Positions 2,112-6,365 of a DNA stretch of 64,000 nt are shown piece by piece. The notes beneath the pieces were generated by a model, which saw only the letters and a list, made by a program, of their open reading frames with translations, did not search any database and was not told the DNA's origin. Origin of the DNA: a virus. Both the position numbers and the translations under genes were made by a program. How positions within the stretch are numbered: the stretch's first letter is position 1; every line of letters begins with the position of its first letter. The stretch is taken from the IMG/VR virus record IMGVR_UViG_3300022562_001814, positions 1 through 64,000 of that record; one strand, 5' to 3'.

Positions 2112-3071
2112 TTGAGAAACAAAATAGTTAGATTTTCATTAGAACAAGAAAGAGAAATAATTTCTTTATATAAAGATGGTTATGGATCGGAAATATTAGG
2201 AAAACAATACGGTGTTTCAAGTTCTCGTATATGCTTGATTCTTAAAAAATATAGTATTTCTAAAAATAATAATAAATATTTATCAGTTCTGTCTAAAAAA
2301 GAAATATATTTAATTCTTAAATTATATCAAAATGGGGCAACTGTTGGTCAATTAGCTAAAGATTTTGGCGTATACCCTAATGCTATTAAAGGAATTTTAA
2401 CTCGTAGAGGTATTAAAATTAGGCAATATACTAAACCTAAGTTTCATTTTAATGAAGATTTTTTATTGATTAATAGCGCAGAATCTGCATATTTTTATGG
2501 ATTTATATTAGGAGATGGAACTTTTAATATTAAAAGCAACACCCCTTTCATCAAAATTTCAATAAATGAATTAGATTTATCTATTTTAAAAAAATTTTGC
2601 AAATGGTTAAGTATACCGTTAAATAAATTATATTATTTTGAAAAAATAAATCAATATCAATTAGATATTAGAAGTAAATATTTGTATCATATCGCTGATA
2701 CTTGGGGGCTCGTACCAAATAAAACTTATAATCCTAAAATACCACAATTAAATGATTTAAATCTGTTAAAATATTTTATAATTGGATTAATAGATGCTGA
2801 CGGATATGTTAAGTTTATTAAAAATAAACCATATCGAATAGAATTGGTAGGTAATAAAAAAATAATGGATTGGGTAGAGTTACAATTAAGAAATTTAGGA
2901 TTTATAGGACATATCATAAGATATTCTCCTGCTAATGTAGTTTGGTCGAGGCTTGTTGTAGGTAGAAAAAATGATGTAATTGAGTTAGCTAAAATATTAA
3001 ATATAAACTCCTGCCCATTTCTTCTTAAACGAAAGTGGCACGATTTGCAAAATTTTATTCTCGGGCAGTGA
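2112..3071 (+). CDS. LAGLIDADG homing endonuclease, free-standing
   Basis: The N-terminal ~100 residues hold two helix-turn-helix-like segments (SEILGKQYGVSSSRICLIL and VGQLAKDFGVYPNAIKGIL). They are followed by two LAGLIDADG-type motifs, AYFYGFILGDGTFN and FIIGLIDADGYVKF, which in this family form the dimer-like core carrying the metal-binding acidic residues. It therefore looks like an intact double-motif DNA endonuclease with an added DNA-binding head. The only suitable start is TTG at 2112, 18 bp after the topA stop; the ATG at 2099 is in another frame. No matching intron or intein flanks are visible, so it is most likely a free-standing mobile endonuclease in the topA-bS21 gap. Confidence 0.87.
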   Translation: MRNKIVRFSLEQEREIISLYKDGYGSEILGKQYGVSSSRICLILKKYSISKNNNKYLSVLSKKEIYLILKLYQNGATVGQLAKDFGVYPNAIKGILTRRGIKIRQYTKPKFHFNEDFLLINSAESAYFYGFILGDGTFNIKSNTPFIKISINELDLSILKKFCKWLSIPLNKLYYFEKINQYQLDIRSKYLYHIADTWGLVPNKTYNPKIPQLNDLNLLKYFIIGLIDADGYVKFIKNKPYRIELVGNKKIMDWVELQLRNLGFIGHIIRYSPANVVWSRLVVGRKNDVIELAKILNINSCPFLLKRKWHDLQNFILGQ

Positions 3072-3217: not shown

Positions 3218-3634
3218 ATGCATATGAAAAAAGATTTTGAAAAAAATCGAGATCAAATCATTCAAGAGTTTCTGAAGGGAGGTGAACCAATAATAGAAAC
3301 CATTAAAAATCATTTAGATGATAGTTATTTAGATGATTTTACGCCATTAGAAGTTAAAGTCCATGGCTCTAACTTTGATAGAGCGTTTAAAACGTTTAGA
3401 GCAATAGTTCAAAAAGAAAAAATATTATCATTATATAAACAAAAACAGACATATGAAAAACCGTCTGTTAAACGTAGACGTAAAAGAAATGAAATGCGTC
3501 AAAAAAGATTAGAATTAGAATCTAAACATAGAAAAATTCTTTCAGGAGAATTTGAAAAAGAATTGAAGAAAAAACAAAAGTTAAAAGAACTTAAAAAACA
3601 ATTGAAAGAAACTCGTAGAAATGATTTAGGTTGA
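3218..3634 (+). CDS. rpsU: Ribosomal protein bS21-like protein
   Basis: Residues about 46-100 read like the small-subunit protein bS21: FDRAFKTFRAIVQKEKIL, then YEKPSVKRRRKRNEMRQKR. These match the family pattern FDxALRRFKR...G(V/I)L...R...YEKPxxxRKRxxxxxxKR in order and spacing. bS21 binds the 30S platform next to the anti-Shine-Dalgarno end of 16S rRNA and aids initiation. This copy is longer (138 versus about 70 residues). It has a 45-residue N-terminal extension and a very basic, probably helical C-terminal tail. Either ATG 3218 or ATG 3224 could be used. Phage-encoded bS21 is known from other large phages; a role in favouring phage mRNA is inference. Confidence 0.82.
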   Translation: MHMKKDFEKNRDQIIQEFLKGGEPIIETIKNHLDDSYLDDFTPLEVKVHGSNFDRAFKTFRAIVQKEKILSLYKQKQTYEKPSVKRRRKRNEMRQKRLELESKHRKILSGEFEKELKKKQKLKELKKQLKETRRNDLG

Positions 3635-4621: not shown

Positions 4622-4948
4622 ATGACTGATGGTTATTTTTCTAGATCTGAAAAGTTCAAAACTTGTTCTGAAAATCAAAATAAACTTAATTTAAGATTAA
4701 AAGAAATTGCTAATGAAATAGCAATATTACCGAAATTACCTCAATCGATGGAAGATTGGATAGATTCTTGGACAGATCCTTCTAAAAAAGGATTTAGTAT
4801 GTCCGCATTTAATAAACATTTGAAGATTAAAAAAGAATATTCAAAATTAATAGATAGTTCTAATTCTAATTTACGAGAAATGAAAATTTTAGTAATAGAA
4901 GAATTATTAGAAAAAATAAATAATACACTCAACAACGGCAGTGATTAA
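4622..4948 (+). CDS. Hypothetical protein
   Basis: A 108-residue, mostly helical, charged protein with no recognised domain. It contains a tryptophan-centred segment (MEDWIDSWTDPSKKGFSMS) between two helical stretches. It lies 10 bp after the previous gene, and its 3' end overlaps the HNH gene by 8 bp, consistent with translational coupling. Confidence 0.7.
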   Translation: MTDGYFSRSEKFKTCSENQNKLNLRLKEIANEIAILPKLPQSMEDWIDSWTDPSKKGFSMSAFNKHLKIKKEYSKLIDSSNSNLREMKILVIEELLEKINNTLNNGSD

Positions 4949-5444
4949 AACTTTATTACTAAATTATAATTATCAAATAATTGCTTTCATTGATGAGAAG
5001 CGAGCTATCAGGCTTTTATTTAAAAATAAAGCAGAAGTTATTTCTAATTGGATCGGTAGAAAAATTAATTCAATTAATGGATTTATAGAACATCCTGCAA
5101 CACTTAAAATGAAATATTTGGTTAATCTCAGACCAACCAAATTAACATTCTCTAGAAAATTAGTTTTAAGAAGAGATGAATATACATGCTGTTATTGTAA
5201 TAAAAAATACAAATATAATAATTTAACTATTGATCATATTATACCCAAAAGCTGTGGAGGAGAAAATTCTTTTATTAATTGCGTTACAGCGTGTATTCCC
5301 TGTAATATGAAAAAAAGAAATAGAACTCCAGAACAAGCTGGAATGGTTCTTAAAATCAAACCAAAAATACCGGATAAATTTTTATGTTATTTTCCAGGTG
5401 ACGCCGAATGGCATGATGATTGGTTATTCTTCATCTCCAATTAA
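4941..5444 (+). CDS. HNH endonuclease
   Basis: This is a classic bacterial/phage HNH nuclease of the RRDxxxCxYC type. KLVLRRDEYTCCYCNKKY is followed by LTIDHIIPKSCGGENSF (the DH of the HNH core), then NCVTACIPCNMKKRNRTPEQAGM (C-x2-C and N). The two CxxC pairs bind zinc, and the His of DH is catalytic in the family. The start is GTG at 4941, overlapping the upstream stop. It is probably a free-standing mobile endonuclease, but a role in genome processing cannot be excluded. Confidence 0.87.
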   Translation: MIKTLLLNYNYQIIAFIDEKRAIRLLFKNKAEVISNWIGRKINSINGFIEHPATLKMKYLVNLRPTKLTFSRKLVLRRDEYTCCYCNKKYKYNNLTIDHIIPKSCGGENSFINCVTACIPCNMKKRNRTPEQAGMVLKIKPKIPDKFLCYFPGDAEWHDDWLFFISN

Positions 5445-5628: not shown

Positions 5629-5835
5629 ATGCTATGTTTAACTTGTTCTAAATTATCAGTATTATCTAGTAAAAGAATTTGCTTACGATGTAAAGGTGGG
5701 ATATATAATAATATGTCTGTTGTATGTGATAATTGTTCAAATAAAGAACAATTATGTTCTATTTGTTTAAAAAAAATATTTAATTCAAATAATAGAATAA
5801 GACCAAAATCAAATTGTAGTAGTTGTGGTAAATAA
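5629..5835 (+). CDS. Small cysteine-rich (zinc-ribbon-like) protein
   Basis: Sixty-eight residues with five CxxC pairs (CLTC, CLRC, CDNC, CSIC, CSSC), enough for two or more zinc sites of a ribbon or RING-like kind. There is no other recognisable signature. Its TAA stop shares one base with the ATG of the deformylase gene, so the two are translationally coupled and may act together. Confidence 0.72.
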   Translation: MLCLTCSKLSVLSSKRICLRCKGGIYNNMSVVCDNCSNKEQLCSICLKKIFNSNNRIRPKSNCSSCGK

Positions 5836-6365
5836 TGATTATAAATGATGAAAATATTTTAAGATCTTCAAATAAAGATGTGGAGCCTGAAGAAGCTGAA
5901 GCTCTTATTAAGACCTTGGAAAAAGAATTAAATTATTCTTTTTTGATGGGTAGACCTGGTATTGGATTGGCTTGTCCACAAATCGGAATAAACAAAAAAG
6001 CAGCCATAGTAAGAATTAATACAAATGGAGTTTATGATTTATCTGTAAATTTGATTAATGCTAAAATTGAAAAAGGATATAATCCTTTTATTTTTAAAAA
6101 CGAAGGATGTTTATCATTTCCCGATCAATTAAATGATACGACTAGATATCAAGAAATACATGTTATTAATAATGCTGTTAAGCCACATGCATTTATTGCA
6201 ACAGGATTATTTGCTGTAGCTATTCAGCATGAATTAGATCATTTAAATGGTATATTGTTTTTTGATAGGATTGTTAAAAAAAATGTAGCCTCTAAAATGA
6301 GACCAAATGATTTATGTATTTGTGGATCAGGTATTAAATATAAACGTTGTTGTAAATTAAAGTGA
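5835..6365 (+). CDS. def: Peptide deformylase with C-terminal SEC-C zinc motif
   Basis: Removes the N-terminal formyl group from nascent proteins. All three signature motifs are present: GIGLACPQIG (motif 1), EGCLSFP with metal-ligand Cys92 (motif 2), and QHELDH with His132, Glu133 and His136 (motif 3). The C-terminal ~25 residues form a SEC-C motif (LCICGSGIKYKRCC), the zinc module best known from the end of SecA and from some ribosome-associated proteins. Phage deformylases are known and are usually minimal; a SEC-C tail on one is unusual and may help docking to the ribosome or SecB/SecY machinery (inference). It starts on the last base of the upstream zinc-ribbon gene. Confidence 0.95.
   Translation: MIINDENILRSSNKDVEPEEAEALIKTLEKELNYSFLMGRPGIGLACPQIGINKKAAIVRINTNGVYDLSVNLINAKIEKGYNPFIFKNEGCLSFPDQLNDTTRYQEIHVINNAVKPHAFIATGLFAVAIQHELDHLNGILFFDRIVKKNVASKMRPNDLCICGSGIKYKRCCKLK

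Follow-up and report, generated by a model that had tools for sequence, protein, structure and literature searches.

Peptide deformylases (PDFs) of phages have been described as a class without the C-terminal region by which the Escherichia coli enzyme binds the ribosome (PMC5591237). E. coli Def, a type 1B PDF, docks via a basic alpha-helix in a groove between uL22 and the L32 protein (PMC12690207). The Vp16 PDF is active in vivo without any C-domain, and a single C-terminal residue stands in for that domain in activity (PMC5591237). Large phages that carry bS21 together with a PDF, as the virus studied here does, are known from work on huge phages and pelagimyophages; the available portions of these reports mention neither a SEC-C tail nor a cluster of bS21, zinc-ribbon and PDF genes (PMC7162821, PMC6375957, PMC7029224). 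The gene described below bears on two questions: why phages carry deformylases, and how PDFs that lack the helix reach nascent chains.

The other system that invites comparison is the C-terminal metal-binding domain (MBD) of SecA, present also in YecA and YchJ, in which a basic SEC-C motif of the form CxCx8C(H/C) follows a flexible linker. A fusion of SUMO to just the SecA MBD sediments together with ribosomes, SUMO-CTT no longer does so once its metal cysteines are blocked, and the SecA CTT crosslinks to uL23 (PMC6620043). By analogy with SecA, the SEC-C motif can be regarded as a transplantable ribosome binder. Ribosome binding has been shown for the motif in SecA, whereas the SEC-C considered here sits on a deformylase rather than on an ATPase or a chaperone.

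The window analysed is a stretch of 64,000 nucleotides, positions 1 to 64,000 of the IMG/VR virus record IMGVR_UViG_3300022562_001814, which comprises 200,737 bases with 30.7% G+C. On the plus strand, an open reading frame with an ATG start (5835-6365) encodes a protein of 176 aa with two domains, Pep_deformylase on aa 5-149 (PF01327, 104.6 bits, Pfam cut-off 22.8) and SEC-C on aa 158-173 (PF02810, 32.4 bits, Pfam cut-off 20.4, E 8.6e-8). The protein also passes the NCBIfam deformylase equivalog TIGR00079 (106.5 bits, cut-off 103.95). Its catalytic domain (aa 1-146; 5835..6272, plus strand), recognized by PF01327, TIGR00079, AF2 and Foldseek, contains all three PDF catalytic motifs intact, namely GIGLACPQ (motif 1, aa 42-49; 5958-5981), EGCLS (motif 2, aa 90-94; 6102-6116) and QHELDHL (motif 3, aa 131-137; 6225-6245), all on the plus strand. 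These agree with the family motifs GxGLAxxQ, EGCLS and QHExDH and supply the Cys-His-His metal ligands and the catalytic Glu; E90, C92, H132, E133 and H136 are invariant in the alignment of the clade that we call A, and also in A2. The product is best explained as a phage deformylase that is predicted from its motifs to be catalytically competent. A fusion of a PDF that retains all catalytic residues to SEC-C had been proposed by the sequence-only reading, and the two Pfam scores and the three motifs bear it out. Neither a further deformylase gene nor a SEC-C other than the PDF tail was found in the 200,737-base record.

The phage PDF is an already known kind of enzyme, of which the SEC-C-tailed form is a new variant. 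Like the PDFs of S-SSM7 and Vp16 and the marine viral type 4 enzymes, the window protein is encoded by a phage gene, has the same fold and motifs, and lacks the ribosome-binding helix; described phage PDFs stop shortly after motif 3, whereas this one has SEC-C there. With E. coli Def it shares the core and the three motifs, and ribosome-linked action is expected in both, but Def docks by its basic helix, in place of which the window protein has a SEC-C knuckle after a short linker. In 5.39 million open full texts, PDF and SEC-C were found together only in work on Streptomyces orphan proteins that uses each term once; closed literature and domain databases may list the architecture.

The tail sequence, RPNDLCICGSGIKYKRCCKLK, can be written as C161-I-C163-GSGIKYKR-C172-C173 and carries the SecA-type SEC-C signature CxCx8C(H/C), with the CxCx8CC spacing as in SecA. 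The corresponding segment (6306..6365, plus strand) holds the PF02810 motif (aa 158-173) and, after another three residues, ends with the stop codon. Between it and the core lies a basic linker (aa 147-157; 6273..6305, plus strand), which conservation and the AF2 model show to be variable and to occupy the position of the ribosome-binding C-terminal helix of E. coli PDF. Across 34 clade-A proteins, mean majority-residue frequency is highest in SEC-C (0.82), lower in the core (0.66) and lowest in the linker (0.48), and C161, C163, K168, K170 and C172 never change; part of this set was picked by a pattern that itself includes the cysteines, and the members found by similarity agree. The conserved ligands make the tail a putative metal-binding motif. 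The clade-A alignment also retains the Asn and Lys of the SEC-C consensus. Before the Asn stands Pro, where GRN would normally have Arg, and the tail may therefore not share the binding preferences of SecA. The tail of the window protein has a net charge of +8 versus -4 for the core, and the median tail charge is +7 over 101 fused PDFs. In these fused proteins the first Cys lies 16-28 aa beyond HExDHL, the linker varies in both length and sequence, and SEC-C forms the extreme C-terminus in nearly all cases. That the tail is a product of chance or a misread frame was ruled out by its Pfam score, its retention in relatives and its conservation in clade A.

The AF2 model (mean pLDDT 92.6) has a standard PDF core, with values of about 93-98 in most blocks, and at the C-terminus a small knuckle (pLDDT 75-86). 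Its nearest solved structures in Foldseek are those of E. coli PDF (4az4/1xen) and the phage S-SSM7 PDF (3uwa). The alpha-3 helix that follows motif 3 as the C-terminal helix of type 1B enzymes is absent from the model. After the motif-3 helix, only turns at 142-145 and 151-154 and three SEC-C residues are modelled as helical, and the linker is reduced to a 4-residue turn. Phage PDFs without a ribosome-binding helix, a point that the sequence-only reading did not raise, leave an obvious role for a SEC-C tail. Given its place at the position of the helix, together with the published data on the helix, SEC-C and bS21, the simplest reading is that a SecA-type SEC-C replaces the ribosome-binding helix as the anchor of the phage deformylase, which would dock the enzyme at the exit tunnel for deformylation of nascent chains. 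We put the probability of this reading at roughly 0.6.

The same features can be read in another way, in which the tail is a metal-handling or stabilizing cap that supplies or guards Fe(II), or replaces the C-domain, with no contact to the ribosome. The SEC-C metal ligands are among the best-conserved residues in clade A, PDF is an iron enzyme, SEC-C motifs can bind iron in vivo, and iron is reported as a ligand of SecA-like MBDs (Cranford-Smith et al. 2020, as cited in PMC8076867). The replacement of a whole C-domain by one residue in the Vp16 enzyme (PMC5591237) also fits such a role. We consider the cap unlikely nonetheless: a stabilizing cap has no obvious need for the invariant K168 and K170, a linker of variable length and sequence suggests a tether more readily than a cap packed onto the core, and one member of the same clade does without any tail after motif 3. 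The ribosome anchor has its own difficulties. The Vp16 PDF works without a C-domain, which indicates that a phage PDF can do without a ribosome anchor, and deletion of the MBD from full-length SecA raised its affinity for ribosomes (PMC6620043), so that SEC-C may regulate binding rather than anchor.

The fusion is widespread in uncultured phages and nearly absent from bacteria, which makes it nearly virus-specific. A whole-protein search returned six virus loci, five of which code for proteins with 56-75% identity, and the tail is present in 5/5 of these. A profile search, sampled at the best 80 loci by similarity and thus biased towards the query, gave 79 parsed deformylases, 29 of them tailed; in 27 of 29 diverse fused relatives the tail is retained at E 0.01 or better. 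Searches at the DNA level used a pattern for HExDHL, a gap and CxCG..C, with a CAT codon for the first His and a second version with CAC. In virus contigs, many of them 200-545 kb in length, the CAT version gave 84 matches and the CAC version 49. Among 80 inspected CAT matches, 78 were in frame, and 63 of the 78 also had motifs 1 and 2 as judged by simple text patterns. Catalytic motifs are retained across the fused PDFs. Unfused virus PDFs are in many cases truncated or end in a basic helix-like tail. No cultured phage with a fused PDF was seen among the matches listed, and tblastn searches of phages with just the SEC-C tail as query, or with an alternative tail described below, gave no match, perhaps owing to masking or the shortness of the query. 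An unannotated fused PDF is encoded in LR745206.1, the 635-kb sequence of a public uncultured phage. This protein is divergent in its motifs (AAGLAANQ, EGCLT and HEINH) and ends in a C-terminal SEC-C.

Six matches to the CAT pattern came from 84,980 prokaryote genomes, a single match among them being a genuine PDF-SEC-C fusion, and the CAC pattern gave none in the 398 genomes of the Limnobacter phylum (0/398). The pattern is strict, recovering only about 40% of the fused PDFs found by similarity, and the contrast between viruses and bacteria is large even when this low recall is taken into account. Three of the six prokaryote matches (3/6) have no in-frame read-through, a fourth contains a stop codon and is not a PDF, and in a fifth the PDF ends just ahead of a separate SEC-C reading frame. 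The genuine fusion lies on a contig of 5.5 kb from a Ca. Berkelbacteria metagenome-assembled genome. There the PDF adjoins a SecA gene on the same strand whose product likewise has SEC-C at its end, and the motif may have been duplicated locally. A profile search of the same phylum recovered PDFs in 254 of 286 genomes, with one (1/286) running through SEC-C without a stop among the matches listed, which extend to 2.7e-25. For the best 25 plasmid-borne PDFs, matches reach aa 148 only, and SEC-C is not covered. With one genuine case among six, a bacterial origin of the fusion was rejected. Neither the pattern search of 84,980 genomes nor the one-phylum searches revealed PDF-SEC-C to be a common bacterial architecture, and the sequence-only reading thus withstands the refuting observation that it had named itself, a fusion common among bacterial deformylases.

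A tree of 103 deformylase cores, from which the tails were left out and in which support is mostly weak, places the window PDF in an 18-row set with a support of 99. SEC-C is present in 17 of the 18; the remaining protein (L020) stops immediately behind motif 3. Over the whole tree the presence of SEC-C changes about 10 times, a count that is slightly high, as one row (L024) was scored tail-less though SEC-C is present, and at least four changes are forced by starred branches. Seven proteins (L047, L050, L055, L067, L070, L074 and LR756508.1) carry, at the same place as SEC-C, an alternative tail, GRNDKVTIRKGDETKVLKYKK...GWEL, of the general form GRNxxVxIxxGxExKxLKxKK...GWxL. One of these, L070, neighbours the SEC-C-bearing L022 on the PDF tree, which suggests an exchange of tails. 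Together with the repeated changes, this adjacency indicates that the tail behaves as a replaceable module. In three clade-A members (L006, L017 and L018), the loop of the SEC-C knuckle is seven residues longer, CxCx15C, with the cysteines retained.

Directly upstream of the PDF, a gene on the plus strand (5629..5835) encodes a zinc-ribbon protein of 68 aa with four invariant Cys pairs, and its stop codon shares one base with the PDF start codon (TAATG). This gene is conserved in clade A, where it lies directly upstream (-48 to +4 nt) in 27 of 31 loci, or in 28 of 32 counting L010, and its product is probably a translationally coupled partner of the PDF. No such gene was found upstream of fused PDFs outside clade A. 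The 68-aa protein could be placed in no confident family, showing just a weak resemblance to CRIPT and to double zinc ribbons.

Further upstream on the same strand (3218..3634), 2.2 kb from the PDF, is a gene for the phage ribosomal protein bS21 (138 aa; PF01165, 53.9 bits, cut-off 27) with N- and C-terminal extensions. Both extensions are long, and the C-terminal one is rich in Lys and Arg. In each of the 17 clade-A records examined (17/17), a bS21 gene lies upstream of the fused PDF and on its strand, at a distance of 2.8-5.7 kb in 14 of them. The other neighbours of the PDF are DNA-metabolism genes, and the linkage of bS21 is to a cluster that also holds functions of this kind, which counts against the anchor reading. 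The record further encodes a type I methionine aminopeptidase (MetAP), outside the window at 152415-153218 of the record (TIGR00500, 183 bits, cut-off 171.35). A MetAP is present in 14 of 20 large records with a fused PDF; the two enzymes of N-terminal methionine excision therefore often occur together in such phages. A SEC-C on methionine aminopeptidase would be a cellular precedent, but the papers searched gave no support for it, and the argument here does not draw on it; the MetAP of this record has no SEC-C.

As an anchor, the SEC-C knuckle on its short, variable, basic linker would substitute for the cellular C-terminal helix and dock the PDF on the 50S subunit, close to the exit tunnel, where the neighbour for SecA is uL23. 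The docked enzyme would remove formyl groups from phage-made proteins as they emerge, and the phage MetAP would, in most such phages, then remove the methionine. The bS21 encoded in the same phage gene cluster is expected to enter host ribosomes; entry into ribosomes has been shown for phage bS21 (PMC6375957). The arrangement would presumably benefit the phage. A conserved replacement anchor would be a direct and testable answer to how helix-less PDFs find nascent chains. If the reading is correct, the tail is a minimal module of about 20 residues for putting an enzyme at the exit tunnel, in a domain architecture widely disseminated by viruses and hardly used by cells. A more elaborate version, which we regard as possible but on balance doubtful, holds that the helix was repeatedly exchanged for SEC-C or the second tail, and that this swappable docking module moves the PDF to the SecA/uL23 side of the exit tunnel, letting it act beside the host PDF, within a ribosome-remodelling kit of bS21, the zinc ribbon, PDF-SEC-C and MetAP.

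Two further roles start from the SecA MBD itself. The tail could occupy the same site as SecA (PMC6620043) and compete at the exit tunnel with SecA and with SEC-C proteins of the YchJ/YecA type, hindering host export or quality control, with deformylation secondary; early placement of phage proteins on host ribosomes is known (PMC10914614). The retention of catalytic motifs across fused PDFs shows that activity was probably selected, and MetAP, which acts downstream, is present in most of these phages; we judge this role very improbable. Alternatively, the tail might link the PDF to Sec export: were it to bind SecB, for instance, phage or host proteins destined for export would lose their formyl groups beforehand. 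SecA MBDs do bind SecB, through contact residues that belong to the motif (PMC6620043, PMC8076867), and the tail keeps the consensus Asn and Lys. Against this, no SecB gene was found in the virus record, which may be incomplete and in which Fmt and tRNA genes were likewise not detected, and there are no export genes among the PDF neighbours that were read. Moreover, the 52 species that have a SecA with MBD but no SecB (PMC6620043) show that SecB need not accompany the motif. Across the virus records scanned, the deformylase is the one protein with SEC-C: of the 20 large fused-PDF records, 18 have a single SEC-C hit above cut-off, and place and frame length identify that hit as the PDF. A link to export is accordingly quite unlikely. 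The sequence-only reading had offered two destinations for the tail, chains leaving the ribosome or chains entering secretion; domain evidence and literature favour the first, and the absence of SecB and of export neighbours speaks against the second.

The window also includes two endonuclease genes. One, of the LAGLIDADG homing type, lies at 2112-3071, directly after the topoisomerase I gene, and the other, at 4941-5444, codes for an HNH endonuclease and is a conserved member of the cluster around the PDF.
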